Assembly: GCA_017961575.1 (NCBI GenBank)
Contig: JAGCXA010000045.1
Location: forward strand, 1 to 37,033
Reading direction: 5' to 3'
Length of the DNA: 37,033 nt
Origin: Clostridia bacterium
GTDB lineage: Bacteria > Bacillota > Clostridia > Oscillospirales > CAG-272
Shown: piece after piece, positions 7,117-32,310 of the stretch
Position numbering within the stretch: position 1 is the stretch's first letter
How the letters are laid out: every line of letters begins with the position of its first letter
Notes under the pieces: generated by a model
What the model saw: the letters and a program-made list of their open reading frames with translations, nothing else
The model's database searches: none
Told to the model about the DNA's origin: nothing
Program-made: the position numbers and the translations under genes

Positions 7117-7170
7117 CTTTTTTCTCCTTTGTAACGCTTTTTTTGCGGTGATCACAAAACCGATTGCTTC

Positions 7171-8547: not shown

Positions 8548-8597
8548 CTGTTTATCCTCATTTGTCGTTTGAACAAAATTTGACATTATAATATAAT

Positions 8598-13230: not shown

Positions 13231-13815
13231 TCAACCGTAGGTCTTGATGATCTCCTCGGCGACTTTGAGACGGGGGATGCAGCGGTCCATCGCCTGCTTT
13301 TCAATGTAACGGTGAGCGTTCGGCTCGGTCATTTTGAGTTCGCTGATGAGCAGCCATTTCGCGCGGTTGACCAGCCGGATCTCGTTCATCTTTTCCTCGA
13401 TCGAGAGGGTCTTTTTCTGATTCTTACGGAGTCCTTCCCGCGCGCTGATCAGCCAGTCGAGGGCGATCGAAAAAACCGGGCGGGAGATCGGTTTTTGCAA
13501 GAGAAAGACGCCGTGCTCGGCGAGTTTTTCATAGGCAAGGTCGTATTGCTCGGTTTTGGAAAGGAACAGGACGACGGCGCCCGAGTCGACGGCGACGTCG
13601 ATCGAGAAACGGATGCCGACGTCGTCCCCGACGGGGGAATTGACGACGACGAAGTCGAAATCGCGTTCGGCGAGCGCCCGTTTGGCGACGCTGACGCCCG
13701 AAACCGTCTGCACCGGCGAAAAAGTGGGGACGGCAAAGTAATCCGCCAACGCGGCGTTGAACTTTTCGGACGTCGAGACGACGAGAACGCTGTAAACCCG
13801 TTCTTTGAAATCCAA
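13231..13815 (-). CDS. ANTAR-domain transcription antiterminator with pseudo-receiver
   Basis: A 194-residue RNA-binding regulator, last gene of the glutamate synthase-glnA operon. Residues 7-120 form a receiver-like fold, but the acidic pair after strand 1 is replaced (VLVVSTSEK) and the phosphoacceptor position is Asn59 (FVVVNSPVG); only Lys108 (LLQKP) remains. It should therefore not be controlled by ordinary phosphorylation. A helical linker (about 121-137) leads to an ANTAR domain (138-194) with NRAKWLLISELKMTE, NAHRYIEKQAMD and LKVAEEII. ANTAR dimers bind hexaloop RNA hairpins and prevent formation of overlapping terminators; such hairpins precede gltB1 and glnN here. The start is TTG at 13815, with AAAGGAGG eight bases upstream. 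ANTAR regulators beside glnA are known in solventogenic clostridia (NitR), so nitrogen control is the best inference. Confidence 0.88.
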   Translation of the reverse strand: MDFKERVYSVLVVSTSEKFNAALADYFAVPTFSPVQTVSGVSVAKRALAERDFDFVVVNSPVGDDVGIRFSIDVAVDSGAVVLFLSKTEQYDLAYEKLAEHGVFLLQKPISRPVFSIALDWLISAREGLRKNQKKTLSIEEKMNEIRLVNRAKWLLISELKMTEPNAHRYIEKQAMDRCIPRLKVAEEIIKTYG

Positions 13816-13852: not shown

Positions 13853-15061
13853 TTATTCTTTGCAGTAGATATTCAGGATCTCTGCGGGCAGGCACTCTCC
13901 GATCCACCCGTCGGCTTTTGCCGCCGCTTTCGCTTTTGCAAGCGTATCGGGCAGTTTTTTGAGATCGACGGTCGACGCTTCGTCGGCCTGGTAGAGATTG
14001 AGGTCGACGGGAGCGGGCAGAGGCAGCCCGTTTTTGATCCCGTAGAGCGCCGCCCGGATCAGGAGGGTAAACGCGATATAGGGATTCGCCGCGGGATCGG
14101 GCGAACGGAGTTCGGCGCGGCGGTACTCTTTCTCTGCCGCGGGGATGCGCACGAGCTGCGAACGGTTCTCGCGCGACCAGGAAACGAAACGCGGCGCTTT
14201 CATCTGCCCGAGCCGTTTGTAGGACTCCTCGTTCGGGTTGAGGAAGACGGTCATCGGAACGATCTTATCAAGAACGCCGGCGATCATATTCCCCTGTTTC
14301 TTTTCGTCGTCGGGTTTTGCCGACCAGTTGATATGGAAGCCGTTTCCGGGCTCGGAATCGAGGGGTTTCGGCGAAAAAACGGCGTGAAGCCCGTTCCGGC
14401 GCGCGACGGTGCGCACGACGGTCTGAAAAGTCATCACGTTGTCGGCGGCGGAAAGGGCGTCGGTGTAGCGGAAGTCGATCTCGTTCTGCCCGGGTCCCTC
14501 CTCGTGGTGCGAACTTTCGGGGCGAATGCCCATCTGTTCGAGCGTGAGACAGATCTCGCGCCGCACGTTCTCGCCCTTGTCATCAGGCGCGATGTCCATA
14601 TATCCGGCGCGATCGTAGGGGATCTTCGTCGGTTCGTTCTTCTCGTCGAGTTCAAAGAGGTAGAACTCCTGTTCCGCCCCGAAATAGAAAGTGTAGCCCG
14701 CCGCCTTCGCGTCCTCGACCGCCTTTTTTAAGAGCGTCCGGGTGTCGCAGGCGAAGGGCGTGCCGTCGGGATAGGAGATCGAGCAGAACATCCGCACGAC
14801 CTTTCCGTGTTCGGGTCGCCACGGAAGCCAGGTCAGCGTGGAGGGATCGGGATGCAGAAAAAGGTCCGAGTGACTTTCGTCCCCGAATCCGGCGACAGCC
14901 GACGCGTCGAACGCGATCCCCCATTCAAAGGCGCGGGGCAGCTCCTCCGGCATGATCGAGATATTCTTCTGCTTTCCGAAGACGTCCGAGAAAGCGAGGC
15001 GGATGAACTTGACGTCCTCCTCCGCCACGTATTGCAGGACCTCGTCCTTCGAGTAATTCAT
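13853..15061 (-). CDS. glnA: Glutamine synthetase type I, short form
   Basis: A 402-residue glutamine synthetase that makes glutamine from glutamate, ammonium and ATP. GS-I signatures are GAEQEFYLFEL (metal-binding Glu), RREICLTLEQMGI, SSHHEEGPGQNEIDFRY, PGNGFHINWS, the ATP-site NRSQLVRIP and RRAELRSPDPAANPYIAF. It is some 40-60 residues shorter than usual GS-I; part of the gap lies just after the substrate His, where the usual loop is missing. The start is ATG at 15061 with GGAGG five bases upstream. It lies 22 bases after gltB3 and 37 before the ANTAR gene, in the glutamate synthase operon, so GS and GOGAT are made together. A second, type III synthetase stands on the other side of the locus. 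The short form should be catalytically complete, but this is untested. Confidence 0.93.
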   Translation of the reverse strand: MNYSKDEVLQYVAEEDVKFIRLAFSDVFGKQKNISIMPEELPRAFEWGIAFDASAVAGFGDESHSDLFLHPDPSTLTWLPWRPEHGKVVRMFCSISYPDGTPFACDTRTLLKKAVEDAKAAGYTFYFGAEQEFYLFELDEKNEPTKIPYDRAGYMDIAPDDKGENVRREICLTLEQMGIRPESSHHEEGPGQNEIDFRYTDALSAADNVMTFQTVVRTVARRNGLHAVFSPKPLDSEPGNGFHINWSAKPDDEKKQGNMIAGVLDKIVPMTVFLNPNEESYKRLGQMKAPRFVSWSRENRSQLVRIPAAEKEYRRAELRSPDPAANPYIAFTLLIRAALYGIKNGLPLPAPVDLNLYQADEASTVDLKKLPDTLAKAKAAAKADGWIGECLPAEILNIYCKE

Positions 15062-15083
15062 TTTGACCTCCCTGTATCTCATC

Positions 15084-15797
15084 TCAGTTTGCTACGTAGA
15101 GTCGTTTGTACGGATTGCTGCTGTCGGGAGTGACGACGGTGAAAGGCGAATCCATCACCTTTTCCTCGTTCTCCCCGAACCGGGCGCAGTACTCTCTGAC
15201 GTACTGCCGGATCCCGACGAGATCCTCTTCGGTCGCTTCGCGCGACGTCACCTGATCCGGGAAAGCGATCCCCCGGCAGTCCGAGCGCAGGATCATTTTT
15301 CCCCCGTGCATTCCGGTGCACGGGAAATTGCCGACGATCCGCCGACCCGAAAGTCCGAGTACGACGATCAAGCCGCCCGCCTGATACTCGCCGAGAAAAC
15401 TGCCGGTGCATCCGCCGACGACGATCACGGGGATCTTGTCTTCGTACGCCTTCATATGGATCCCGGCGCGGTAGCCGGCGTCGCCCCTGACGAAAATCTT
15501 TCCGCCGCGCATCGCGTAACCGACGGCGTCGCCGACGTTGCCGCCGATGACGATCTCGCCCGCGTTCATCGTGTCGCCGACGGCGTCCTGCGCGTTGCCG
15601 GAAACGGTGATCGTTCCCCCGTTGAGGTACGCGCCGAGCGCGTTGCCCGGAACGCCGTCGATTGCGACCTCGACGTCGGACATTCCGGCGCAAATAAAAC
15701 GCTGCCCGAGGCACCCGGTCAACTCGACCTTGCCTCCCGCGCGTCTGATCGCGTCGTTTAGGGCGCGGAAATCGAGCCCGTTTGCGTTGACTAACAT
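15084..15797 (-). CDS. Glutamate synthase GXGXG-domain subunit
   Basis: A 237-residue stand-alone version of the C-terminal beta-helix (GXGXG) domain of glutamate synthase large subunit. Repeated turns such as YLNGGTITVSGNAQDAVGD, NAGEIVIGGNVGDAVGYAM and RGGKIFVRGDAGYRAG are diagnostic. In the fused enzyme this domain packs the glutaminase and FMN domains together; here it is a separate protein, as in archaeal-type glutamate synthases. The start is ATG at 15797, one base after the oxidoreductase stop, with GGAGGTG upstream; the GTG four codons earlier lies too close to that site. It is tightly coupled to its neighbours in the gltB1-gltB2-ferredoxin-oxidoreductase-gltB3-glnA operon. About 60 residues after the beta-helix (REATEEDLVGIRQYV) form a helical tail found in this family. 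Confidence 0.9.
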   Translation of the reverse strand: MLVNANGLDFRALNDAIRRAGGKVELTGCLGQRFICAGMSDVEVAIDGVPGNALGAYLNGGTITVSGNAQDAVGDTMNAGEIVIGGNVGDAVGYAMRGGKIFVRGDAGYRAGIHMKAYEDKIPVIVVGGCTGSFLGEYQAGGLIVVLGLSGRRIVGNFPCTGMHGGKMILRSDCRGIAFPDQVTSREATEEDLVGIRQYVREYCARFGENEEKVMDSPFTVVTPDSSNPYKRLYVAN

Positions 15798-15798
15798 A

Positions 15799-17031
15799 TT
15801 ATACCACACCTCCGAACTTTTTTCTACGGGTTTCCCGCGAAAAGATCAGATTGGACGCAACTTTTTTCGTCAGATCGAAATCGAGTGAGGAAAGCGGCGT
15901 CTTTTCGCGGATCAGCGACGTGTAGATTCCGGCGCGCTCGGTCGCCCCGATCAGGATAAAACCGCGAAGGAATCCGTCCTTGACAAAGAAGCGTTTGACG
16001 CCGTTTTCGGTCTTTTCTTCGGTCATCTCGCCGTCGTAGGCGCCGGCGGTCATCAGATGAAGCCCGAAAAAGCCGATCGCGTTCATCGGGATCGCGTTCG
16101 TGAGAGCGGCGTCTCCTCCCGCCATATTGACCCCGGCGGCGCGTCCCTGTAAATAAGCGTTCGGCAGGATCGCGAGCACGCGATTCTGCCCGACCGAGGC
16201 GTCGAATCCCTCGGCGCAGTCGCCCGCGGCGTAGACCGAGCGGAGACTCGTCCGCATTTTTTCGTCCACGACGATCCCGCGATTGACTTCTCCCCCCGCG
16301 TCTTTGACGAGGTCGACGTTCGCCCGCACCCCGACGGCAAGGACGACGAGATCGAAGGGAACGGTCTTTCCGCTCTTCATCGTCGCCTCGTTCCGATCGA
16401 ATCGTGCGACGCTGTCGCCGAGCAGGAACGAGATCCCGTTCTCTTCAAGGTGTCTTTGTACGATCTTGGCGCATTCGGCGTCGAGAATGCTCGAAAGCAC
16501 CCGTTCGGCAAGGTCGCAGACCGTGACCGTCCCGACCCGCCGGGCGATCCCCTCGGCGCATTTGAGTCCGATCAGCCCCGCCCCGACGATCAGGACGCGC
16601 GCGTCGGGTCTGAGCGCACCTTCGAGCGACAGCGCGTCGTCGAGCGTCATAAAACCGAACTTGTTTTCGACGTTTGCAAGCCCCTCGAAGGGCGGGACGA
16701 AGGGACGCGAGCCGGCGGCGACGCAGACCTCGTCGTAGGAAAGGACGCTTCCGTCGTCGAGCGACGCGGTTTTCTTTTCGGGATCGAGCGAGAGCGCGCG
16801 CCGCCCGTAAAGCACCCGGCAGCCGTTCTTTTCGTAGAAATCGTCGGGACGGTAGTTCATTTTCGTCAGGTCGGTCTTGCCTTCAAGATAGTAAGAGATC
16901 AACGGGCGGGCGTATACGGGGCGGTTCTCCCCGGAAACGACCGTGATCTCGCCCTCTCCGTCGTGAGAGCGGATCCCCTCGACCGTCCCGACGGCGGCGG
17001 CGCCGTTGCCGATCACGAGATACCGTTTCAT
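15799..17031 (-). CDS. FAD-dependent NAD(P)H oxidoreductase of the glutamate synthase operon
   Basis: A 410-residue pyridine-nucleotide-disulfide-type oxidoreductase resembling NADH-rubredoxin and nitrite reductase flavoproteins. The first dinucleotide fold is YLVIGNGAAAVGTVEGI (FAD); the second is VLIVGAGLIGLKCAEGIA (NAD(P)H). The FAD-closing motif is SVYAAGDCAEGFD. No redox-active CxxC is visible. The start is ATG at 17031, overlapping the ferredoxin stop as ATGA, so translation is coupled. It occupies the place of GltD and probably feeds NAD(P)H electrons, through the preceding ferredoxin, to the FMN/Fe-S core (GltB2). It is not a normal GltD, because the GltD Fe-S N-domain is absent and its clusters are on the neighbouring protein. 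Function is inferred from operon position. Confidence 0.85.
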   Translation of the reverse strand: MKRYLVIGNGAAAVGTVEGIRSHDGEGEITVVSGENRPVYARPLISYYLEGKTDLTKMNYRPDDFYEKNGCRVLYGRRALSLDPEKKTASLDDGSVLSYDEVCVAAGSRPFVPPFEGLANVENKFGFMTLDDALSLEGALRPDARVLIVGAGLIGLKCAEGIARRVGTVTVCDLAERVLSSILDAECAKIVQRHLEENGISFLLGDSVARFDRNEATMKSGKTVPFDLVVLAVGVRANVDLVKDAGGEVNRGIVVDEKMRTSLRSVYAAGDCAEGFDASVGQNRVLAILPNAYLQGRAAGVNMAGGDAALTNAIPMNAIGFFGLHLMTAGAYDGEMTEEKTENGVKRFFVKDGFLRGFILIGATERAGIYTSLIREKTPLSSLDFDLTKKVASNLIFSRETRRKKFGGVV

Positions 17032-17468
17032 TCCTCGTCCCCCCTCTCCTCGTACACGATGGCGTTGTTCGGACAGCCCGTCACGCACGCCGGCGCGCCG
17101 CAGGCGTTTTCAAGGCACAGTTCGCATTTCTGCATCGTTCCGTTCTCCCCCGGCGCCAGCGCCCCGTAGGGGCAGACCAGAACGCAGGTCAGGCACCCGA
17201 CGCACTTCGTCCGGTCGATCTTCACCACGCCGTCTTTTTTGCCGATCGCTCCCGCGATACAACTCTTCACGCAGAGCGGATCGGTACAGTGACGGCAGGA
17301 GACGGCGAAGGTGATCCGATCGTCCCCCTCGACGTGGATGCGCGGAAAGATCTTTTTGTCCTTCAAGGCGAACGCCATATCCTTCATTCCCGAATTGGCG
17401 AAGGCGCAGTTGTATTCGCAGAGGTGACAGCCGAGGCACCATTCTTCGTTGACGTAAACTCTCTTCAT
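17028..17468 (-). CDS. Polyferredoxin, four [4Fe-4S] clusters, HycB/CooF type
   Basis: A 146-residue electron-transfer protein of the HycB/CooF/HydN type. Four cysteine groups are seen: CLGCHLCEYNC (11-21), CRHCTDPLCVKSC, CVGCLTCVLVCP and CELCLENACGAPACVTGCP, enough for four cubane clusters. It has no signal peptide and is cytoplasmic. The start is ATG at 17468 (MKRVYVNEEW), with AAAGGA about 12 bases upstream. It is coupled by ATGA overlap to the FAD oxidoreductase and follows gltB2 after a 121-base structured gap. Its likely task is to relay electrons between the oxidoreductase and glutamate synthase. It could also connect the enzyme to reduced ferredoxin from fermentation. Confidence 0.88.
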   Translation of the reverse strand: MKRVYVNEEWCLGCHLCEYNCAFANSGMKDMAFALKDKKIFPRIHVEGDDRITFAVSCRHCTDPLCVKSCIAGAIGKKDGVVKIDRTKCVGCLTCVLVCPYGALAPGENGTMQKCELCLENACGAPACVTGCPNNAIVYEERGDEE

Positions 17469-17589
17469 TCCTGTTCGTAATTCCTTTCTTCCTTGCGCCG
17501 GCCGACGTTTGCGCGGTCGCCGCAAGGGGATTTCGCGCCACGCTTTTCGGCGCGAAAAACGCAAACTCGAAGATTGACGGTCACGTCAA
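17469..17589 (-). other. Structured intercistronic gap between gltB2 and the ferredoxin gene
   Basis: This 121-base gap is the only sizeable spacer in an otherwise tight operon. Read on the minus strand it contains a TTGACG/CGTCAA inverted repeat just after the gltB2 stop. It also holds a 9-bp stem TTTCGCGCC/GGCGCGAAA, which can be nested inside GTTTGCG/CGCAAAC. There is no T-run after the stems and no consensus promoter. It may be a processing or mRNA-stabilising element that sets subunit ratios. Confidence 0.45.
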
Positions 17590-19095
17590 TCATTCTCCCG
17601 CGTGCGAAATGCCGAGTATTTCGAGTTCCTTCCCGTTCAGCCCGACGCCGCGGAGCATCAGTCGGTTGCCGCGGAGCGCCTCGATCGAGTTGATGCCCAT
17701 TCCGCCCATCATCTCCATGATCTCGTGCCGCCACGCCGTCATCAGATTGACGAGACGCTGCGAGCCGATATCGGGATTCAGGCGTTTCACGAGGTCGGGA
17801 CGCTGGGTCGCGATGCCCCAGTTGCATTTACCGCTCTGGCAGGTGCGGCAGAGATGGCAGCCGAGCGCAAGCAGCGCGGCGGTCGCGATATAGCAGGCGT
17901 CGGCGCCGAGGGCGACGGCTTTCACCACGTCGGCGGCGCTCCGGATCGAGCCCCCGACGACGAGCGAGACGTTGTTGCGGATCCCCTCGTCGCGCAGCCG
18001 CCTGTCAACCGCGGCGAGCGCCAGTTCGATCGGAATTCCGACGTTGTCGCGGATGCGCGTCGGAGCGGCGCCGGTCCCGCCGCGGAAGCCGTCGATCGCG
18101 ATGATATCGGCGCCGCTCCGGGCGACCCCGCTGGCGATCGCGGCGACGTTGTGGACGGCGGCGATCTTGACGATCACCGGCTTCTCGTACCGCGTCGCCT
18201 CTTTGAGTGAAAAGACGAGTTGGCGCAGATCTTCGATCGAATAGATGTCGTGATGAGGGGCGGGCGAGATCGCGTCGGAACCCTCCGGGATCATTCGCGT
18301 GCGCGAGACGTCGCCGACGATCTTCGCGCCGGGCAGATGCCCGCCGATACCGGGCTTCGCTCCTTGCCCCATCTTGATCTCGATCGCCGCCCCGGCGTTG
18401 AGGTAGTCCTCGTGGACGCCGAAGCGCCCCGACGCGACCTGCACGACGGTATGCGGACCGTAAACGTAGAAGTCCTCGTGAAGTCCGCCCTCTCCCGTGT
18501 TGTAGAGGATCCCGAGTTCGGTCGCGGCGCGGGCGAGCGAGGCGTGGGCGTTGTAACTGATCGAACCGTAACTCATCGCCGAGAACATCACCGGCATCGA
18601 GAGTTCGATCTGCGGCGGAAGCGCGCAGTCGATCTTCCCGTCCGCCGTCCGCGTCACCGATTCGGGTTTCTTACCGAGAAAGACGCGCGTCTCCATCGGC
18701 TCGCGGAGCGGGTCGATCGGGGGATTCGTCACCTGCGAGGCGTTGATCAGGATTTTGTCCCAGTAGACCGGGAAGGATTTCGGATTCCCCATCGAGGAGA
18801 GCAGGACGCCGCCGCTGCCCGCCTGTTTGTAGACTTCGCGGATCGTGTCGTTCTGCCAGTTCGCGTTCTCGCGGAGCGTGCAGTCGCTTTTGACGATTTT
18901 CAACGCCCGCGTCGGACAGAGCGAGACGCAGCGCTGACAGTTCACGCACTTGGTCTCGTCGCTTACCATCGCGCCGCGCTCGGCGCTGAAAGTATGTACC
19001 TCGTTCGCGCATTGGCGCTCGCAGACGCGGCAGGCGATGCAGCGGTCGGGGTTGCGGATCACTTCAAATTCGGGATAGATGAAATCGACGCCCAT
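17590..19095 (-). CDS. Glutamate synthase FMN/Fe-S core subunit, archaeal type
   Basis: A 501-residue protein equal to the central and FMN-binding domains of glutamate synthase, the site where 2-oxoglutarate and ammonia form glutamate. The N-terminus adds two 4Fe-4S motifs (CIACRVCERQCANE and CVNCQRCVSLCPTRA), typical of archaeal-type GltB. The barrel shows SAMSYGSISYNAH, NTGEGGLHED, KMGQGAKPGIGGHLPG, ISPAPHHDIYSIEDL, DGFRGGTGAAP and GADACYIATAALLALGC. The cluster motif CHLCRTCQSGKCNWGIATQ matches the 3Fe-4S region of GOGAT. The start is ATG at 19095, one base after the gltB1 stop, with AAGGAGG upstream; the longer frame overlaps gltB1. The glutaminase partner is gltB1 and the beta-helix partner gltB3. 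Confidence 0.95.
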   Translation of the reverse strand: MGVDFIYPEFEVIRNPDRCIACRVCERQCANEVHTFSAERGAMVSDETKCVNCQRCVSLCPTRALKIVKSDCTLRENANWQNDTIREVYKQAGSGGVLLSSMGNPKSFPVYWDKILINASQVTNPPIDPLREPMETRVFLGKKPESVTRTADGKIDCALPPQIELSMPVMFSAMSYGSISYNAHASLARAATELGILYNTGEGGLHEDFYVYGPHTVVQVASGRFGVHEDYLNAGAAIEIKMGQGAKPGIGGHLPGAKIVGDVSRTRMIPEGSDAISPAPHHDIYSIEDLRQLVFSLKEATRYEKPVIVKIAAVHNVAAIASGVARSGADIIAIDGFRGGTGAAPTRIRDNVGIPIELALAAVDRRLRDEGIRNNVSLVVGGSIRSAADVVKAVALGADACYIATAALLALGCHLCRTCQSGKCNWGIATQRPDLVKRLNPDIGSQRLVNLMTAWRHEIMEMMGGMGINSIEALRGNRLMLRGVGLNGKELEILGISHAGE

Positions 19096-19096
19096 A

Positions 19097-20191
19097 TCAG
19101 TACGCTCCTTCCTTGACTCTGACGACGACCGGCTCGCCGCCCGCGGGGGCGCAGATCCCACGGGCTTCGGGCTCCATCGCCCGGATCGCCGCCTCTTCGC
19201 TCGCGATAAAGACCCGGTCGTCCTTTTCCCCGACGACCATCGACCGCAGTTTCAACCGATCGTTCAACGCCATCAGCCCGCCGGTAAAACCGAGGACGAT
19301 CGAGAAGGGTCCCGTGACGAGCAGACTGGGAAAAACGGTGCGCAGGTATTGCAGTTTCCGTCTTTCGTATTCGTCGGTCTTGTTTTCGATCGTGCTCCAG
19401 AAAGGAGCGGCGATCACGTTCGCGGCTTCGGTGAGCGAGAGCCCCTGCCGACGTACAAGATAATCAAGAATATAGGTAATGACCTCGGTATCCGTCTGCA
19501 AGTTGCATTTGTATCCGAACATCTCGATAAACCGACGGTTGGCGTCGTAGGACGAGATCTCGCCGTTATGGACGATCGAAAAATCGAGCAGAGCGAACGG
19601 ATGCGCGCCGCCCCACCAGCCGGGCGTGTTGGTCGGGTATCTGCCGTGCGCCGTCCAGGAGTATCCCTCGTACTCGTCGAGCCGGTAGAAGACCCCGACG
19701 TCCTCGGGGTAGCCGACCGCCTTGAAGGTCCCCATATTCTTGCCGCTTGAAAAGACGTAGGCGCCCGAGAGTTCGGTGTTGATCTTCATCACCGTGCGCG
19801 CGACGAACTCCTTTTCGTCGAGTTGCAGATCGGCGAGGACGGATTTCAGGGGGGTGACGAAATACCGCCAGATCAAGGGTTCGTCGGTGATCGCGGGGAT
19901 CTTCCGGGTGGGGATGACCTCCCCCTTCACGATCTCGTAGTGCTCCTTTAACATCGCCTCGCACGCCTTGCGCGTGTCGCGGCAGTCGAAAAAGAGATGA
20001 AAGGCGTAAAGATCGCGGTATTCGGGATAAATCCCGTAACCGGCGAATCCGCCGCCGAGCCCGTTCGAGCGGTCGTGCATCGGCTTCATCGCGCCGATGA
20101 TCGCCTCGCCCGTCATCCGTTTGCCCTCCCGCGAGATCACCGCCGCGATCGCGCACCCCGAGGGGATCCTGATACTGCCTTCCCGTTCCAT
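19097..20191 (-). CDS. Glutamate synthase glutaminase subunit, class II (Ntn) amidotransferase
   Basis: A 364-residue class II glutamine amidotransferase, equivalent to the N-terminal domain of glutamate synthase; it releases ammonia from glutamine for GltB2. The nucleophile is Cys13 within RIPSGCAIAAVI, so 12 residues must be removed before it becomes an N-terminal Cys. Further Ntn features are AHGRYPTNTPGWWGGAHPF, the oxyanion/substrate loop IVHNGEISSYDANRRF and QTDTEVITYILDYL. The start is ATG at 20191, with AAAGGA seven bases upstream. It is the first gene of the leftward nitrogen operon, and its 5' leader carries an ANTAR hexaloop overlapping a terminator, so it is probably controlled by antitermination. 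Confidence 0.93.
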   Translation of the reverse strand: MEREGSIRIPSGCAIAAVISREGKRMTGEAIIGAMKPMHDRSNGLGGGFAGYGIYPEYRDLYAFHLFFDCRDTRKACEAMLKEHYEIVKGEVIPTRKIPAITDEPLIWRYFVTPLKSVLADLQLDEKEFVARTVMKINTELSGAYVFSSGKNMGTFKAVGYPEDVGVFYRLDEYEGYSWTAHGRYPTNTPGWWGGAHPFALLDFSIVHNGEISSYDANRRFIEMFGYKCNLQTDTEVITYILDYLVRRQGLSLTEAANVIAAPFWSTIENKTDEYERRKLQYLRTVFPSLLVTGPFSIVLGFTGGLMALNDRLKLRSMVVGEKDDRVFIASEEAAIRAMEPEARGICAPAGGEPVVVRVKEGAY

Positions 20192-20213
20192 ATCGCATTC
20201 CTTTCCGAAATAA

Positions 20214-20276
20214 ACAAAAAGACGTCCGTTTTTGCGTAAGACAAGTCAAACGCAAAAATGAACGCCTTTGCTCATT
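20214..20276 (-). promoter_or_regulatory. ANTAR-type hexaloop/terminator leader of the gltB1 operon
   Basis: Read on the minus strand, a 7-bp hairpin AATGAGC/GTTCATT (20276-20270 with 20263-20257) carries the hexaloop AAAGGC, with A at position 1 and G at 4, as in ANTAR targets. Its 3' strand is also part of the 5' arm of a long terminator: 20266-20250 pairs with 20237-20221, 16 pairs and one mismatch, 12-base loop, then TTTTT. The two structures exclude each other. ANTAR binding should hold the hexaloop and permit readthrough. Only one hexaloop is evident, whereas classical ANTAR targets have two. Confidence 0.75.
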
Positions 20277-20283
20277 TTTCTGC

Positions 20284-20312
20284 ATTATAGCACACGATCG
20301 CGCGCTTGTCAA
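20284..20312 (-). promoter_or_regulatory. Promoter of the leftward gltB-glnA operon
   Basis: On the minus strand, TTGACA (20312-20307) and TATAAT (20289-20284) are 17 bases apart, a full consensus. Transcription should begin near 20278, directly before the hexaloop hairpin. A strong, apparently unregulated promoter is what transcription-attenuation control needs. Confidence 0.9.
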
Positions 20313-20362
20313 GCGGCGACGACCCCGAAAAACGATTTTTTTGAAAAAATGCGAAAAAGGGG

Positions 20363-20391
20363 TTGACAAACGCCCCGAACGGGTGTATAAT
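20363..20391 (+). promoter_or_regulatory. Promoter of the rightward glnN operon
   Basis: TTGACA (20363-20368) and TATAAT (20386-20391) are separated by 17 bases. The start should fall near 20398, five or six bases before the first hexaloop hairpin. It diverges from the gltB1 promoter, with the two -35 boxes about 50 bases apart. Confidence 0.92.
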
Positions 20392-20403
20392 GCGACTTGT
20401 TAA

Positions 20404-20455
20404 AAGGCAATGGCGTCTTTGAGCCGAGGGTTCAAAGGCGCGATTTTCTTTTTTG
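20404..20455 (+). promoter_or_regulatory. ANTAR hexaloop/terminator module 1 of the glnN leader
   Basis: The hairpin AAAGGC/GTCTTT (20404-20409 with 20416-20421) presents the hexaloop AATGGC (A1, G4). Its 3' strand forms part of the 5' arm of a 13-bp terminator (20414-20426 with 20430-20442, loop GAG), followed by a T-rich tract at 20445-20455. Hexaloop and terminator are mutually exclusive. Loop and closing pairs (GC-loop-GT) match the module that follows and the gltB1 leader. Confidence 0.8.
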
Positions 20456-20471
20456 ACAAGTCCATATTACG

Positions 20472-20525
20472 GAAGGCAACGGCGTCTTCTATGTGTTGAA
20501 CATAGAAGGCGCCGCCGTCGTTTTT
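20472..20525 (+). promoter_or_regulatory. ANTAR hexaloop/terminator module 2 of the glnN leader
   Basis: The hairpin GAAGGC/GTCTTC (20472-20477 with 20484-20489) presents AACGGC. The competing terminator is a perfect 14-bp stem (20481-20494 with 20500-20513, loop GTTGA); an alternative outer pairing ACGGCG/CGCCGT carries it to two bases before TTTTT (20521-20525). The ribosome binding site of glnN follows directly. This is a second copy of the module 68 bases downstream of the first, with diverged but pairing-conserved arms. Confidence 0.8.
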
Positions 20526-20540
20526 CGGAAGGAGAGAACA

Positions 20541-22637
<2,097 letters not shown>

Positions 22638-22664: not shown

Positions 22665-24419
22665 ATGACACCCCAAGAGATCGTAACACTCGTCAAAGAA
22701 ACCGCGTCAAGTGAGGTTTTCGGCGTCTGGTTTCTGATCGGAGCCGCCCTCGTCTTCTTTATGCAGGCGGGATTCGCGATGGTCGAAACCGGTTTTACCC
22801 GCGCCAAGAACGCCGGGAACATCATCATGAAGAACCTGATGGACTTCTGCATCGGAACGGTGGTCTTCGTTCTGCTCGGCTTTTCGCTGATGATGGCGGA
22901 GGACTACGTCCTCGGATTCATCGGCGTGCCGAACCTGAAAATCCTGACCGATTTCGGCGGTTTTCTCCGTGACGGGAACGCCCCCTCCTTCGTCTTCAAC
23001 CTCGTGTTCTGCGCGACGGCGGCGACGATCGTCTCGGGCTCTATGGCGGAGCGGACCAAGTTCCTCTCCTACTGCATCTATTCCGGCGTCATCTCGCTCT
23101 TCGTCTATCCGGTCGAGGCGGGCTGGGTCTGGAACGAGGCGGGCTGGCTCGTCAAACTCGGTTTCCACGATTTCGCCGGATCCGCCGCGATCCACTCGGT
23201 CGGCGGCACCGCCGCCCTGATCGGCGCGATTATGGTCGGCCCCCGGCTCGGCAAGTACGTGAAGGACAGCGCGGGGAAGGTGACGAAGGTCAACGCGATC
23301 CCGGGTCACGCCGTGACGCTCGGCGCGCTCGGCTGCTTCATCCTCTGGTTCGGTTGGTACGGCTTCAACGGCGCGGCGGCGTGGGACGGCGATTCGCTCG
23401 CCTCGATCTTCGTCACGACGACGATCGCGCCCGCCGTGGCGACCTGCGTGACGATGGTCTTTACCTGGATCAAGAACGGCAAACCCGACGTCTCGATGTG
23501 CCTGAACGCCTCGCTCGCGGGGCTGGTCGGGATCACCGCGGGCTGCGACGCGCTTGACGCCGTCGGCTCGACCGTCGTCGGGATCGTCTCCGGATTCCTC
23601 GTCGTGTTCGTGGTCGAATTCCTCGACCTGAAACTGCATATCGACGATCCGGTCGGCGCCGTCGGCGTCCACTTCGCGAACGGGATCTGGGGGACGCTTG
23701 CGGTCGGATTGCTCGCCAATCCCGACGCTCCCGCCGGGCTCAAAGGTCTGTTCTATACCGGCAGTTTCCGGCTCCTCGGCGTGCAGACGCTCGGCATCGT
23801 CGCCATTCTCGGCTGGACTGCGGCGCTTATGACCCTGACCTTCTTCGTCATCAAGCGGACGGTCGGACTGCGCGTGTCGCAGGAAGAGGAGATCAAGGGG
23901 CTCGACAAGACCGAACACGGGCTTCCCTCGGCGTACGCCGATTTCGTCCCCGCCGTGGAGAGTCTGGATTACGGATTTGCGGGCGCCGTCGCCGTAACGG
24001 GAGACGCCCCGGAAGCGGAGGCGATCCCGGTCAAGCGCGTACCGTCGTTTGACGAGACGCAGCCCAAGTTTACCAAAATCGAGATCATCTGCAAGGAACC
24101 CCGCTTCGAGGCGCTGAAAAGCGCGATGATGGACATCGGCATTACCGGGATGACGGTCTCGCACGTCCTGGGCTGCGGGGTGCAGAAGGGGCAGCCCGAA
24201 TACTACCGCGGCGTCCCGGTCGAAGCCACCCTTCTGCCCAAAATACAGGTTGACATCGTGGTCAGCAAGGTGCCGGTGCGGCACGTGATCGAGACCGCGA
24301 AGAAGGTGCTTTATACCGGACATATCGGCGACGGAAAGATCTTCGTGTACGACGTGGAGAACGTCGTGAAGGTCAGAACCGGCGAGGAAGGATACGACGC
24401 CCTGCAGGACGTGGAGTAA
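22665..24419 (+). CDS. Ammonium transporter fused to a PII sensor domain
   Basis: A 584-residue fusion. Residues 1-400 are an Amt/Mep/Rh channel with about eleven membrane helices. The pore His pair is visible in DFAGSAAIHSVGG and AVGVHFANGIWG. After a 70-residue cytoplasmic linker, residues from about 471 form a PII protein: KIEIICKEPRFEAL, a T-loop with GVQKGQPEYYRG, the ATP-binding TGHIGDGKIFV and the C-loop VRTGEEG. The position of the uridylylated Tyr51 of E. coli GlnB is Val here, so control must be by ATP/ADP/2-oxoglutarate binding rather than uridylylation. The sensor could gate its own channel, the job done in other bacteria by separate GlnK. The start is ATG with AAGGAG eight bases upstream, 27 bases after glnN. 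Confidence 0.94.
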   Translation: MTPQEIVTLVKETASSEVFGVWFLIGAALVFFMQAGFAMVETGFTRAKNAGNIIMKNLMDFCIGTVVFVLLGFSLMMAEDYVLGFIGVPNLKILTDFGGFLRDGNAPSFVFNLVFCATAATIVSGSMAERTKFLSYCIYSGVISLFVYPVEAGWVWNEAGWLVKLGFHDFAGSAAIHSVGGTAALIGAIMVGPRLGKYVKDSAGKVTKVNAIPGHAVTLGALGCFILWFGWYGFNGAAAWDGDSLASIFVTTTIAPAVATCVTMVFTWIKNGKPDVSMCLNASLAGLVGITAGCDALDAVGSTVVGIVSGFLVVFVVEFLDLKLHIDDPVGAVGVHFANGIWGTLAVGLLANPDAPAGLKGLFYTGSFRLLGVQTLGIVAILGWTAALMTLTFFVIKRTVGLRVSQEEEIKGLDKTEHGLPSAYADFVPAVESLDYGFAGAVAVTGDAPEAEAIPVKRVPSFDETQPKFTKIEIICKEPRFEALKSAMMDIGITGMTVSHVLGCGVQKGQPEYYRGVPVEATLLPKIQVDIVVSKVPVRHVIETAKKVLYTGHIGDGKIFVYDVENVVKVRTGEEGYDALQDVE

Positions 24420-24422
24420 ACT

Positions 24423-26006
24423 ATGTGTTCGATATTCGGTTATTGCGGCCCCGTCGCGGACAGAACCGCGTTTGAAGGGGCGTTCCAAAAAACCAAATCG
24501 CGCGGACCCGACGACAGTCGCGTGATCGCGGCGGGGAAAGGGCTTCTTGCCTTTCACCGCCTTGCGATCATGGGGCTGACGCCGGAGGGGATGCAGCCGT
24601 TCACTCTGAACGGCTGCGCCGCCGTGTGTAACGGCGAACTTTATTCTTTTACGCGCGAGCGCGCGAAACTCTTAGAGAAAGGGTATTCTTTCAAGAGCGA
24701 CAGCGACTGCGAGATCCTGCTCCCGATGTATTTCGAGTACGGGGTCGACCTCTTTTCAAAACTCGACGCGGAATTCGCCTGCGTGATCCACGACGGCAGA
24801 ACCGACGAGTGGATCGCCGCCCGCGACCCGATCGGGATCCGCCCGCTCTACTACGGCTACGACGAAAACGGCACGATCCTGTTCGCGAGCGAAGCGAAGA
24901 ACCTCGTCGGGCTCTCGAAAAAGATTCTGCCGTTCCCTCCGGGGCACTACTACAAGGGCGGGCGCTTCATCCGCTACGCCGATCCCGCCAAGGTCGACGC
25001 GATCTGTCACGACGATCTTGAAACGGCGTGCGGGAACATCCGCGAAAAACTGATCGCCGGGGTGGAAAAGCGGATGGTCGCCGACGCGAAGGTCGGGTTT
25101 CTGCTTTCCGGGGGGCTTGATTCCTCGCTCGTCTGCGCGATCGCGGCGCGGCTCTCCGACCGTCCCATCAGGACGTTCGCTATCGGGATGGACAAGGACG
25201 CGATCGACCTCAAATACGCGCGGCAGGTCGCCGACTTCATCGGGTCGGATCACACCGAGGCCTATATGACACGGGACGAAGTACTCGTGTCGCTTGAAAC
25301 GGTGGTGAAACTCCTCGGCACCTTCGACATCACCACGGTTCGCGCCAGTATGGGGATGTACCTCGTTTGCAAAGCCATCCACGAGACGACCGACGTCCGG
25401 GTGCTGCTGACGGGGGAGATCTCGGACGAACTCTTCGGCTACAAGTACACCGACTTCGCCCCCGACGCCGCGGCGTTCCAGACCGAAGCCGAAAAGCGGA
25501 TCCGGGAACTGCACGCCTACGACGTCCTGCGCGCCGACCGCTGCATCTCGGTCAACTCGCTGGAAGCGCGGGTACCCTTCGGCGACCTCGATTTCGTGAA
25601 ATACGTTATGGCGCTCGACCCCGAAATGAAGATGAACCGCTACGGCAAGGGCAAGTACCTGCTCCGGCACGCCTTCGAGGGGCTCGGGTATCTGCCCGAC
25701 CCGATCCTCTGGCGTGAGAAAGCGGCGTTCTCCGACGCGGTGGGTCATTCGATGGTCGACGACCTGAAAGAGTACGCCGAGACGGTCTACTCCGACGAAG
25801 AATACGAAAAGCGCCGGAAAAAGTACGACTACGCGCAGCCCTTTACCAAAGAGTCGCTTCTCTACCGCGAACTCTTCGAGAAGCACTATCCGGGACAGGC
25901 GGAGATGATCCCCGGCTTCTGGATGCCGAACAAAGAATGGCGCGGCTGCGACGTGAACGACCCGTCCGCCAGAGTGCTGTCCAACTACGGCGACAGCGGA
26001 AAATAA
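24423..26006 (+). CDS. asnB: Asparagine synthetase, glutamine-hydrolysing
   Basis: A 527-residue AsnB that makes asparagine from aspartate, ATP and the amide of glutamine. The N-terminal class II amidotransferase has Cys2 as nucleophile (MCSIFGYCG) with RGPDDSR, HRLAIMG and CNGELYS. The synthetase half carries the PP-loop [24 protein letters not shown] and a C-terminal region [21 protein letters not shown]. Length is close to bacterial AsnB of the E. coli type. It begins three bases after the transporter stop, with GTGGAG inside that gene's end, so it is in the same transcript. The neighbourhood supplies its glutamine. Confidence 0.95.
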
Positions 26007-26031
26007 AAAAACGAAAAAGAGGAACAAGGCA

Positions 26032-26751
26032 ATGGAGAAAAAGGAACAACTCTACGAAGGAAAAGCGAAGAAGGTCTTCAAAACCGACGATCCCGAAAAA
26101 CTGATCGTCTCCTACAAGGACGACGCGACGGCGTTCAACGGGCTGAAAAAAGGGACCATCGCGGGCAAGGGCGTCATCAACAACCAGATGAGCAACCGGC
26201 TGATGAAACTGCTCGAACAAGAGGGGGTCCCGACCCACTTCGTCGAGGAACTCTCGGAGCGCGAAACGCTGGTCAAGCGGGTGACGATCGTGCCGCTTGA
26301 AGTGATCGTGCGGAATATCTCGGCGGGGTCGTTCGCCAAGCGGTACGGGGTCGAGGAGGGGATCGTTTTCAAGTCCCCCACGATCGAGTATTCGTATAAG
26401 AACGACGCGCTCGGCGACCCGCTCCTGAACCGCTATCACGCGCTGGCGCTGGGGCTCGCGACCGAGGCGGAACTCGATACGATCGAACAATACTCCTTCA
26501 AGGTCAACGAGGCGCTGTCGGCGTTTTGGCGCGACTGCGGCGTGACGCTGGTCGATTTCAAACTCGAATTCGGACGGCTCTCCGACGGCACGGTCGTGCT
26601 CGCCGACGAGATCAGCCCCGACACCTGCCGCCTCTGGGACAGCAAGACCAAGGAAAAACTCGACAAGGACCGTTTCCGCCGCGATCTCGGCGGCGTCGAG
26701 GACGCCTACCGCGAGATCATGGGGCGGCTCGAAAAGAAACTCGGCAAGTAA
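26032..26751 (+). CDS. purC: SAICAR synthase
   Basis: A 239-residue phosphoribosylaminoimidazole-succinocarboxamide synthase, the purine step that joins aspartate to CAIR using ATP. The signature start [22 protein letters not shown], the substrate block [17 protein letters not shown] and [12 protein letters not shown] are all present. Length is normal. The start is ATG with GAGGA eight bases upstream, 25 bases after asnB. It takes nitrogen from aspartate rather than glutamine, the one amino-donor difference among this group, and is far from other pur genes except purF. Confidence 0.97.
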
Positions 26752-26760
26752 GGGGCGGAT

Positions 26761-27504
26761 ATGTTCGACGCGGAAAAGGTCAAAAACGAGTGTGTCGCGT
26801 GGATCCGCGATTTCTTCCGGGAGAACGGCGAGGGATGCAACGCAATCGTCGGGATCTCGGGCGGCAAGGACAGTTCGACGGTCGCCGCTCTCTGTAAAGA
26901 GGCGCTCGGCGACGACCGGGTGATCGGCGTGTTGATGCCCTGCGGCGTGCAGAGCGATCTCGATATGGCGGAGTTGCTGGTTTCGCATCTCGGGATCCGG
27001 CGTTGCGTCGTCAATATCAAGGACGCCGTGGACGGGCTGAAAAAGAACCTGCCGTTCGATCTCTCCCGGCAGAGCGCGATCAACCTGCCCGCCAGGATAC
27101 GGATGGCGACGCTCTACGCCGTGGCGCAGAGCCGTAACGGGCGGGTGGCGAACACCTGCAACCTCTCGGAGGATTGGGTCGGTTACGCGACGAGGTACGG
27201 GGACGGAGCGGGGGATTTCAGCCCGCTGTCCCGCCTGACCGTCGCCGAGGTGAAGGAGATCGGGCGCGCGCTCGGTCTGCCCGAGACGCTGGTGGAGAAG
27301 GTTCCGATCGACGGGCTTTCGGGGAAAACCGACGAGGAGAATCTCGGGTTCACCTACGCCGAACTCGACCGCTACGTCCGGACGGGTAAGATCGACGATC
27401 CCGAAACGAAGAGAAAGATCGACCGCCTGCACGAAGCCAATCTCTTCAAACTGAAACCGATGCCGGCGTTCGACCCGAAGATCCCCGTCGCGGGGCAAGA
27501 ATAA
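26761..27504 (+). CDS. nadE: NAD synthetase, ammonia-dependent
   Basis: A 247-residue NadE forming NAD from deamido-NAD, ATP and ammonia. The PP-loop is VGISGGKDSSTVAAL, followed by GVLMPCGVQSD, ARIRMATLYAVAQ, NTCNLSEDWVGYATRYGDGAGDF and the family block DGLSGKTDEENLGFTY. The nitrilase-type glutaminase domain of long NadE is absent, so free ammonia is the donor unless another subunit supplies it. This fits its place between ammonium uptake and the amidotransferase genes. The start is ATG at 26761, nine bases after purC. Confidence 0.95.
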   Translation: MFDAEKVKNECVAWIRDFFRENGEGCNAIVGISGGKDSSTVAALCKEALGDDRVIGVLMPCGVQSDLDMAELLVSHLGIRRCVVNIKDAVDGLKKNLPFDLSRQSAINLPARIRMATLYAVAQSRNGRVANTCNLSEDWVGYATRYGDGAGDFSPLSRLTVAEVKEIGRALGLPETLVEKVPIDGLSGKTDEENLGFTYAELDRYVRTGKIDDPETKRKIDRLHEANLFKLKPMPAFDPKIPVAGQE

Positions 27505-27528
27505 CGGCGACCAAAGGAGACGACGAAG

Positions 27529-29055
27529 ATGGAAAAGATACTCGTGCTCGATTTCGGCGGGCAGTACGATCAGTTGATCGCCCGCCGCGTGCGGGAACAG
27601 CAGGTCTACGCCGAGATCAAGGCGTATAACCGCGTGACGGTCGACGAGATCCGCCGGGCGGGATACAAGGGGATCGTCTTCACGGGCGGGCCGAACAGCG
27701 TCTACGACCCCGCGTCGCCGCATTTTGACCCCGAGATCCTCTCGCTCGGGATCCCGCTCCTCGGGATCTGCTACGGGCATCAGTTGATCGCGTATCTCGC
27801 GGGCGGCGTGATCGGACCCGCCGCGAGCGGGAGCGAATACGGCAAGACCGAAGTGACGGTCAAGCCCGGCGTTCTCTTCGCCGGCGTGCCCGAAAAGAGC
27901 GTCGTCTGGATGAGCCACACCGACTACGTGTCGACCTTGCCCGCCGGATTTCACGCGGTCGCGTCGACCGACGCCTGCCCCTCCGCCGCGATGGCGGACG
28001 AGGGACGGAAGATCTACGGCGTGCAGTTCCACCCCGAAGTGACGCATTCCGAATACGGAACGAAGATCCTCTGCAACTTCCTCTTTTCGGTCTGCGGATG
28101 CGCGGGCGACTGGAAGATGGACGACTATATTGAGAAAACCGTAGCGGAATACAAAACCGCCCTCGCCGGGAAAAACGTGCTCTGCGCCCTCTCGGGCGGG
28201 GTCGATTCGGCGGTCGCGGCGGCGCTGATCCATCGGGCGGTGGGGGACAAACTGACCTGCGTGTTCGTCGATCACGGTCTGCTCCGCAAGAACGAGGGCG
28301 ACGGGGTCGAAAAGGTCTTTTCGGGCGGGTTCGGGATGAACTTTCTCCGCGTCGACGCCGAGGAGCGGTTTTTATCGAAACTCGCGGGCGTCGTCGAACC
28401 CGAAAAGAAGCGCAAGATCATCGGGGAGGAGTTCATCCGCGTCTTTGAAGACGTGCGCGACAAGATCGGAGACCCCGATATTCTCGTGCAGGGGACCATC
28501 TACCCCGACGTCGTCGAGAGCGGCAAGGGCGACGCCGCCACCATCAAGAGCCACCACAACGTCGGCGGGCTTCCGTCGGTGATGAAATTTCAGGGGATCG
28601 TCGAGCCGCTCCGCGACCTCTTCAAGGACGAGGTGCGCGAGGTCGGACGGAAACTCGGACTGCCCGAATCGCTCGTCTCGCGCCAACCCTTCCCGGGTCC
28701 CGGACTTGCCGTGCGGATCATCGGGGAGATCACGCGGGAGAGGGCGGACGTGCTTCGCGACGCCGACGCGATCTTCCGCTGTGAACTTGAAAAAGCGGGC
28801 GTTCGTCCGAGCCAGTATTTCGCGGTCCTGACCGACACCGCGAGCGTCGGGGTGATGGGGGACGCCCGGACCTACGGGCACGTCGTCGCGCTCCGCGCCG
28901 TCACGACCGACGACTTTATGACCGCCGACTGGACGCGGATCCCCTACGACGTACTGGAAGCGGCAAGCCGCCGGATCACAAACGAAGTGAAAACCGTCAA
29001 CCGGGTGGTGTACGATATTACCTCGAAACCGCCCGCGACGGTGGAATGGGAATGA
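27529..29055 (+). CDS. guaA: GMP synthase, glutamine-hydrolysing
   Basis: A 508-residue GuaA converting XMP to GMP with ATP and glutamine. Residues 1-190 are a class I amidotransferase with the nucleophile in [15 protein letters not shown] and the His/Glu motif [13 protein letters not shown]. The ATP pyrophosphatase domain follows with [16 protein letters not shown] and FVDHGLLR. The C-terminal dimerisation domain shows [15 protein letters not shown] and ends KPPATVEWE. The start is ATG with AAAGGAG ten bases upstream, 24 bases after nadE. A 219-base gap follows before pyrG, the only break in the rightward run. Confidence 0.97.
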
Positions 29056-29081
29056 CGCGGAGCATCATTTTCATTCCACCA

Positions 29082-30884
<1,803 letters not shown>

Positions 30885-30885
<1 letters not shown>

Positions 30886-32306
30886 TGAGCGGTCTGCACG
30901 AGGAATGCGGGGTGTTCGGAGTTTTCGCCGAACAGCCGACCGACGCGGCGCGCCTTGCGTATTACGGACTTTTCGCTCTGCAACACCGGGGGCAGGAGAG
31001 CTGCGGGATCGTCGTGAACGACGACGGGCTTTTCGTTTCGCATAAGGATCTCGGCACCGTTGCCGACGTGTTCACGAAGGAAACGCTCGCCTCGTTTCCG
31101 CGGGGGACGATGGCGGTCGGGCATACCCGCTACGGCACGACCGGAGGCACGAACCGGGCGAACTGTCAGCCGATCGAGGTCAACCACGTCAAGGGGAGGA
31201 TGGCGATCGCCCATAACGGCAACCTCTCGAACGCCGCCGAACTCCGCTCGGAACTCGAACTTTCGGGCGCGATCTTCCACACGTCGAGCGACACAGAAAC
31301 GATCGCCTATCTCGTGACGCGCGAACGGCTGACCGCTCCGTCGATCGAGGAAGCGCTGATCCGCGCGATGAGGACGCTCGACGGCGCGTATTCGCTCGTC
31401 CTGACGTCGCCCTCGAAACTGATCTGCGCCCGCGATCCCTACGGATTCCGCCCGCTCTGCTACGGAAAGACCCCCGACGGCGTTTATATCGTCGCGTCGG
31501 AAAGCTGCGCTCTTTCGGCGGTCGGCGCGGAGTTCGTCCGCGACGTGATGCCGGGCGAGGTGCTGGTCTTCTCGCGGGACGGGGTCACGTCGCGCCGCGA
31601 GCATTGCGGCGCGAAACCGAAAAAACTCTGCATTTTCGAGTATATCTACTTCTCTCGTCCCGATTCGACGATCGACGGTCGCTCGGTGCACGCCGCGCGG
31701 ATCGACGCCGGACGGATCTTAGCCGAGACGCACCCCGTCGACGCGGATCTCGTGATCGGGGTTCCCGATTCGGGGCTTGACGCCGCCCTCGGATACAGCC
31801 GGGCGTCGGGAATCCCCTACGACATCGGTCTCATCAAGAACAAGTATATCGGGCGCACCTTTATCTCCCCCGACGGGCGCGCCGATCAGGTGAACATCAA
31901 ACTCTCCGCCGTCGGGGAGGTCGTGCGCGGAAAGCGCGTCGTCCTGATCGACGATTCGATCGTCCGGGGAACGACCTCCGGTCGGATCGTGTCTCTGCTC
32001 CGCCGCGCCGGGGCGCGCGAGATCCATATGCGGGTGTCTGCGCCGCCGTTCCTCTATCCCTGCTTCTACGGGACCGACGTCGATTCGCGGAAGAACCTGA
32101 TCGCCGTCAAGCATACCCCCGCCGAGATCGCGGAGATGATCGGCGCCGATTCGCTCGGGTTCTTCCCGACCGAACGGCTCGCGGAACTCGCGGGCGACCG
32201 CCGCTTCTGCTGCGCGTGCTTCGACGGAAGATACCCGACGAAAACGCCGGACGACTCGCGGAAAAACCGATTTGAAACAAGATTATCCGAGCGAAAAGAG
32301 GAATGA
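30885..32306 (+). CDS. purF: Amidophosphoribosyltransferase
   Basis: A 473-residue PurF catalysing the first committed purine step, from PRPP and glutamine to phosphoribosylamine. The nucleophile is Cys8 in HEECGVFGVF, behind a seven-residue propeptide that must be removed, as in the B. subtilis-type Fe-S enzyme. The Ntn domain shows LQHRGQESCGIV, GHTRYGTTGG and AHNGNLSN; the PRPP-binding motif is VVLIDDSIVRGTTS. Late cysteines (CCACFDG, with others) fit the structural 4Fe-4S cluster. The start is ATG at 30885, overlapping the pyrG stop; a GTG one codon earlier is possible. It lies just ahead of carA. Confidence 0.96.
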
Positions 32307-32310
32307 AACG

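Follow-up and report, generated by a model that had tools for sequence, protein, structure and literature searches.

The sequence analysed here, hereafter the window, is a stretch of 37,033 nucleotides from a gut or rumen bacterium of the class Clostridia whose genome comprises 1.88 Mb in 67 contigs. Its intergenic region 20192–20540 is the starting point of two divergent operons of nitrogen genes. The minus-strand operon begins with gltB (19097–20191), encoding the amidotransferase subunit of glutamate synthase, and continues with genes for the glutamate synthase FMN domain subunit (17590–19161), a 4Fe-4S protein (17028–17564), a pyridine nucleotide-disulphide oxidoreductase (15799–17088), the GXGXG domain subunit of a split glutamate synthase (15084–15809), the glutamine synthetase GlnA (glnA, 13853–15082) and a NitR-type regulator (13231–13815). 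The latter combines a receiver-like domain carrying Asn59 with an ANTAR domain and is the sole ANTAR protein detected in the genome; its gene lies within a controlled operon, as the first-pass annotation had proposed. The plus-strand operon starts with glnN (20541–22637), encoding a type III glutamine synthetase, followed by a gene for a 584 aa fusion of an ammonium transporter (AmtB) with a P-II domain (22665–24419). The co-directional genes asnB, purC, nadE, guaA, pyrG, purF, carA and carB (24423–36580) probably continue this operon, and the proposed coordination of ammonium assimilation with glutamine use would follow from this gene content and the assumption of a single plus-strand operon. 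Elsewhere in the window, minus-strand genes at 4264–7155 and 7441–8586 encode BspA-type leucine-rich repeat proteins, the longer of which contains zinc-ribbon domains.

Two sigma-A type promoters diverge within the intergenic region, both of the form TTGACA-17-TATAAT and matching the consensus at 12/12 positions, in agreement with the first-pass annotation. That of the glnN operon lies at 20363–20391 on the plus strand (−35 at 20363, −10 ending at 20391) and that of the gltB operon at 20284–20312 on the minus strand (−35 starting at 20312, −10 ending at 20284); 12/12 matches number 2, versus 0.2 ± 0.4 in shuffles. Transcription is expected to start near 20398 and 20277, respectively. Three hexaloop hairpins, hereafter boxes, follow these promoters. 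Box 1 (20403–20420, plus strand) presents the loop AAUGGC (20409–20414), box 2 (20471–20490, plus strand) AACGGC (20478–20483) and box 3 (20254–20279, minus strand) AAAGGC (20269–20264), on uninterrupted stems of 6, 7 and up to 10 bp, respectively. All three loops have A at position 1 and G at position 4 and are closed by a C-G and then a G-U pair. The 3′ strand of each hairpin sits within the 5′ arm of an intrinsic terminator: terminator 1 (20413–20454, plus strand; 13 pairs and a U tract) includes the loop end and the 3′ strand of box 1 in its 5′ arm, terminator 2 (20480–20525, plus strand; 15 pairs and a U tract) overlaps box 2, and terminator 3 (20208–20269, minus strand, with a U tract) overlaps box 3, the last being absent from a stricter terminator scan whose loop limit was 8. 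Because each hexaloop hairpin shares one strand with its terminator, only one of the two structures can be present at a time.

Folding gave both structures for every box. The full leaders all folded into the terminators (z −5.9, −5.1 and −5.3; 0/200 shuffles as good), and truncated nascent pieces formed the hexaloop hairpin in all three cases. The folding energy of the minus-strand nascent piece had a z of −3.4, and that of the two plus-strand pieces was by itself not unusual (z −0.9 and −1.7, with 37/200 and 13/200 shuffles as good). The first-pass annotation's description of AAnGGC hexaloops retaining A1 and G4, closed by C-G and G-U and overlapping terminators in all three copies, thus stands.

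We searched for further boxes with two covariance models: R2, built from 79 boxes outside the source genus (leave-genus-out), and R1, which includes sequences from the genus and relatives, the window's own boxes among them. R2 recovered boxes 1, 2 and 3 with E-values of 1.5e-6, 1.9e-5 and 1.1e-7, the next match in the window scoring 11.1 bits. With R1, for which 150/869 first-look candidates of the source genome were scored, three matches at 27–32 bits were obtained, all in this window and with the gltB-side box best at 32.3 bits; the next reached 16.4 bits (E 0.5). As controls we took 41 GlnN leaders totalling 35 kb, those of 12 GlnN paralogues (L046–L057) and 29 from genus genomes without an ANTAR match (L045, L058–L085); R2 gave no match at E ≤ 1 in any of them, and a looser detector returned five chance-like matches there, none of which combined an AANGG loop with C-G closing. 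The source genome itself encodes a second GlnN, whose leader (L046) has no box, so that this paralogue is probably under other control. Within the plus-strand gene run, a gap of 219 nt (29056–29274) precedes pyrG, and a box search of this gap found none; by eye, it contains short repeated GTTATGAG-like pieces. No Rfam family matched the window at the gathering score, and the 15 weak matches at a loose threshold were all below that score and none was named for ANTAR.

Within the genus, ANTAR matches occur in 14/69 genomes, and boxes were present in the leaders read from 11 of these 14. The stretches read from G021, G043 and G068, assemblies of 270–280 contigs, yielded no box, and in G048 and G066 the boxes are divergent and were scored low or missed by the model. 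The best 24 genus matches of R1 fell in 11 genomes, nine with an ANTAR gene and two, G067 and G009, whose contigs stop within the gltB operon ahead of the expected nitR position; aside from these, the first match in an ANTAR-free genome was in G035 (E 2.8e-4). One match (G044:C67:5997 in L197, E 7.5e-5) had no overlapping terminator by our detector and may be a chance hit or another use of the hexaloop. Two weak sites (L034:163 minus and L036:874) were dropped from the 33 genus sites.

Beyond the genus, an alignment scan of named genomes with NitR gave 80 NitR loci among the matches listed, the closest protein, 86% identical, being that of the rumen MAG uncultured Ruminococcus sp. RUG12422. 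Our detector produced 126 hits in 50/80 of these listed loci, 113 of which precede GlnN (69), GltB (39), GlnA (3) or AmtB-PII (2) genes, leaving 13 without assignment. The 16 choices of loop bases 1 and 4 were occupied very unequally in the listed loci, with 126 hits for A1/G4 and 0–4 for each of the 15 others, and C-G closing gave 126 hits against at most 8 for any other pair, with the reservation that the detector accepted only hits with four or more stem pairs, a C-G closing pair and a terminator, so that these features are built into the 126. Enrichment restricted to A1/G4 loops among the listed loci agrees with the earlier emphasis on these bases. Counting only leaders with 150 nt of upstream sequence and using the strict detector, we found boxes in 42/43 GlnN leaders of the listed loci (26 with two, 16 with one) and in 36/42 GltB leaders, each with exactly one; 6/42 and 1/43 leaders, respectively, were without a box. 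The mostly operon-internal glnA had one in 3/67 cases. Five hits (L127:3235, L127:3416, L134:7451 minus, L140:10801 and L161:936) were later excluded from the geometry count, being chance matches or echoes of the reverse strand; four of them are included as GlnN or GltB in these leader and gene counts. When we anchored on promoters instead, 102/218 AANGR hexamers had stems of ≥4 pairs, versus 1–20 in shifted registers. Operon-internal boxes with terminators were also seen on the glnN side away from the main leader (L112:1434, L123:1149, L125:1813, L139:1173, L144:6919 and L147:5850, all on the minus strand), as if the same control were repeated within operons.

The first-pass annotation had noted that the stems differ yet still pair, and had set a lack of stem covariation in relatives beforehand as grounds for refutation. 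In A3, an alignment of 136 boxes, 92.4% of pair cells were paired, compared with 75.6% in shuffles and 43–56% in shifted registers, and the covariation score was 0.539 versus 0.238. As the sites were selected for a stem, the pairing is independent of this selection only from the fifth pair onwards. Pair 5 alternates between A-U (79/136) and U-A (39/136), and pair 3 between G-C (89/136) and A-U (44/136). A1, A2, G4 and the C-G closing pair are constant in A3, A1/G4 and C-G closing by selection.

At the level of the order, 55/68 genomes with a box at E ≤ 3e-4 had an ANTAR gene, compared with 168/295 genomes overall (Fisher p 3.4e-6), and at E ≤ 1e-5, a threshold chosen after seeing the table, all 38/38 did. 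The remaining 13/68 boxed genomes had no ANTAR match, only five of the 13 being under 90% complete. The covariance-model search in relatives, which had been proposed as a check, accordingly places boxes before nitrogen genes and together with ANTAR genes. In a set of 69 order boxes, one row was dropped because a locus end truncated it. After further removal of the boxes of L168, L185 and L187, which lie within the model's source loci, 59 order boxes found without requiring a terminator or promoter remained, and 56 of them had an overlapping terminator, compared with 19/1500 random positions; a promoter within 12–80 nt was present at 106/2000 random positions. In a phylum scan with R2, only 10/398 genomes matched at E ≤ 1e-4, and loci L262 and L263 show the divergent two-plus-one arrangement again outside the order, in no fewer than two other families. 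Two further phylum matches (L266, L267) had no terminator and were set aside as probably due to chance. Another 20 ANTAR loci, taken from order genomes in which no strong box had been found, showed no clear dual motif; a loose detector gave 11 hits, three of them with some P1-like hairpin upstream. Four ANTAR-bearing order genomes (L210, L216, L217, L224) contain what look like more divergent single boxes with GAC..GTC or CGGC..GTCG stems, unreported by R1 and most with a −10-like hexamer about 16–23 nt before the loop.

The boxes of relatives also point to a regulon that varies by species. They precede gdhA and, farther along, asnB in G056 (L196, loops at 2660 and 4087), ilvE and glnA in G065 (L040:2184 and 2112 on the minus strand, L040:2299 on the plus strand) and pyrG, which directly follows nitR, in G048 (L043:775). 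The 68 order boxes include one each before asnB, purF, glnA and pyrG, and 6/68 have no assigned gene. All of the added box-bearing genes are nitrogen or glutamine-using genes.

The published ANTAR target consists of two adjacent hexaloop hairpins, P1 and P2, joined by a short linker, of 5–12 nt in the eut leaders of Enterococcus faecalis (PMC3369931) and 2–25 nt in actinobacterial targets. No P1 hairpin was seen beside the window's boxes, a point that the first-pass annotation had not raised, and none lies 2–25 nt upstream within the predicted transcript, where a dual-hairpin target would have it. P1-like hairpins preceded 9/114 first boxes, the random rate (181/2000 positions), and the eight whose positions were listed end 5–20 nt upstream of the stem, where they coincide with the −10 region. 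The same detector finds a close P1 in eut leaders, in 2/6 detector hits from 27 EutP loci (L227, L236). The −10 hexamer starts 17–23 nt before the loop in 100/114 first boxes and 19–23 nt before it in 41/49 of the independent order set, so near that the predicted promoter leaves no room for P1. If transcription starts about 7 nt downstream of the −10, as predicted, the hairpin would span roughly +1 to +20, that is, about the first 20 nt of the RNA; an unseen promoter farther upstream could supply a P1. Second boxes follow 62–138 nt after the first (38 cases).

These distances bear on the alternative that the tandem glnN boxes are a stretched P1/P2 pair with terminator 1 in the linker, the gltB box being weak or secondary and NitR acting exactly like EutV. 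EutV works best with two hexaloops (PMC3369931), and 26/42 boxed glnN leaders of the listed NitR loci have two. We nevertheless rejected the pair and regard the alternative as improbable, as the spacing exceeds both published linker ranges and each window box has its own terminator, as do most order boxes (56/59). Furthermore, the supposedly weak gltB-side box is the window's best by R1, all 36/36 boxed GltB leaders of the listed loci are single-box, and close P1 hairpins are within the detector's reach, as L227 and L236 demonstrate.

Nitrogen-gene leaders can carry riboswitches, and the hairpins might accordingly work independently of protein, either as riboswitches that respond to glutamine or to a different ligand, or by constitutive attenuation. 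We consider this very unlikely, given that the element is just a hairpin of about 20 nt with the constant positions described for A3, that boxes co-occur with ANTAR genes, that no Rfam family is matched at the gathering score, and that the nitrogen boxes resemble the P1 hexaloop of L236, a eut leader from another family (GAAAGAC-AAGGGC-GUCUUUC). That the hairpins are terminators only, sharing a loop through common descent or duplication and regulating nothing, would suit the strength of the terminators but is scarcely credible in view of the conservation of loop and closing pair while stems change in a paired way, the narrow distance to the promoter, and the absence of boxes from the 29 GlnN leaders of ANTAR-free congeners and the 12 paralogue leaders.

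The regulator itself matches the ANTAR domain PF03861 at 13234–13815 with 53.4 bits, against a curated cut-off of 27.3. Sequence alignment suggests a receiver fold for the remainder of NitR, in which the position opposite the phospho-acceptor Asp of Rv1626 is Asn59 in 14/14 genus proteins, the window's included, and Asn in 80/80 further NitR proteins among the matches listed; NitR is therefore probably not worked by phosphorylation of that site. Numbering the EutV contacts by hand, we found K149, E160 and M172 kept in the window's NitR, K143 and K147 replaced by Arg, R142 by Ile and Y164 by His, as in AmiR. The sites of R142, K143, K147, K149, E160, Y164 and M172 are occupied in the 80 further NitR proteins among the matches listed by Ile (80), Arg (80), Arg (75) or Lys (5), Lys (80), Glu (80), His (80) and Met (80), respectively, and His168 and Met176, at the places of EutV Tyr164 and Met172, are invariant in the 14 genus proteins as well. 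In EutV, Tyr164 stacks on G4, and both Tyr164 and Met172 are reported to contact RNA. Loss of EutV Arg142 cut affinity 8-fold (PMC8934654), and the Ile aligned with it in NitR counts against the explanation favoured below. The P-II domain of the AmtB fusion (22665–24419, plus strand) is a candidate NitR partner.

The window fits the clostridial NitR system, in which the ANTAR gene clusters with glnA and glutamate synthase genes. A nitrogen-assimilatory gene cluster with NitR is said to have been described in Clostridium saccharobutylicum by Stutz et al. in 2007 (PMC6316151, PMC4676874). The GS/GOGAT genes of that species are reported to be induced through NitR by antitermination on nitrogen limitation (PMC6316151), and the window likewise pairs an ANTAR protein with GS/GOGAT genes. 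Compared with the C. saccharobutylicum system, the target in the window is resolved as single hexaloops at the predicted transcript start of two divergent operons, and the plus-strand operon is rich in glutamine amidotransferases. The RNA resembles that of E. faecalis EutV in its A1/G4 hexaloop, C-G closing, U in the next pair and terminator overlap (PMC3369931, PMC8934654) and differs in having no P1 beside P2, while the protein differs from EutV in its Asn in place of the phosphorylated Asp, its His in place of the G4-stacking Tyr and its Ile in place of Arg142. AmiR of Pseudomonas aeruginosa (PDB 1qo0) also combines a pseudo-receiver with an ANTAR domain and has His at the place of EutV Tyr164, but serves a different operon and ligand. 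AmiR is controlled by a bound partner protein, AmiC (PMC8934654); we saw no AmiC-like gene among the window genes examined. ANTAR targets have previously been linked to glutamate synthase genes in putative Desulfotomaculum regulons and to glutamine synthetase, P-II and ammonium transporter genes in other genomes (Ramesh 2012, PMC3369931). As the model of that study was defined as two hairpins, lone boxes would be expected to be passed over. Our search of the open-access literature found no description of single-hexaloop antiterminators.

The boxes, their terminator overlap and stem covariation, the promoter spacing, the lack of P1 and the co-occurrence with ANTAR genes are visible in the sequences themselves. 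From them we infer, with high confidence, that both divergent operons are controlled by NitR-type ANTAR antitermination with one hexaloop per terminator; binding, direction of control, signal, transcript starts and the sufficiency of a single hexaloop all belong to what is proposed. The nascent RNA would start with the AANGGC-loop hairpin. With NitR unbound, the 3′ strand of this hairpin would be pulled into the stronger terminator, stopping transcription before glnN or gltB; active NitR, probably under nitrogen limitation, would hold the hexaloop, block the terminator and thereby activate both operons. For the direction of control, with the operons on at low nitrogen, we rely on the analogy with what is reported for C. 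saccharobutylicum NitR (PMC6316151). One hexaloop per terminator would be enough, its place right at the start of the transcript leaving it no P1 partner, and the gates would stand in series, two in the glnN leader and one in the gltB leader. Since nitR is at the end of the gltB operon, NitR would feed back on its own supply. The system is most likely the known NitR-type control acting on an RNA target of a simpler, one-hairpin form, set against a published two-hairpin target.

Some observations count against this explanation, namely the boxed order genomes that have no ANTAR match (13/68), the unboxed leaders (6/42 GltB, 1/43 GlnN) and one-box glnN leaders (16/42) of the listed NitR loci, the G044:C67:5997 match that has no terminator, the unboxed ANTAR-bearing genomes G021, G043 and G068, and the divergent boxes of G048 and G066. 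The sufficiency of one hexaloop is the claim most open to refutation, because deletion of P1 impaired EutV-dependent induction of eutP in E. faecalis, and the ANTAR construct of EutV showed little or no binding to a single stem-loop relative to a pair (PMC3369931), so that a lone hexaloop might not suffice. The later EutV–RNA structure narrowed the minimal binding site down to one hexaloop; that study still deems contact with each of two hexaloops necessary to stop termination and leaves the role of single hexaloops to further bioinformatic and experimental work (PMC8934654).

More broadly, we lean towards a widespread single-hexaloop branch of ANTAR control among clostridia that live in the gut and rumen. 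Its boxes would be formed by the initial ~20 nt of the transcript, at a near-fixed distance from the promoter, stringency would be set by stacked gates, often two for glnN and one for gltB, P1 would be dispensable, and the pseudo-receiver would be read by a partner (P-II or glutamine synthetase) and not by phosphorylation. The analysis outlines a nitrogen regulon of rumen and gut clostridia, whose leaders in the window have no Rfam family at the gathering score. These leaders offer a large natural set of candidate single-hexaloop attenuators whose geometry is simple, and make the role of single hexaloops directly testable in vitro on a leader of ~60 nt. If the proposal is true, antitermination can do without P1, in conflict with the EutV model as it now stands.
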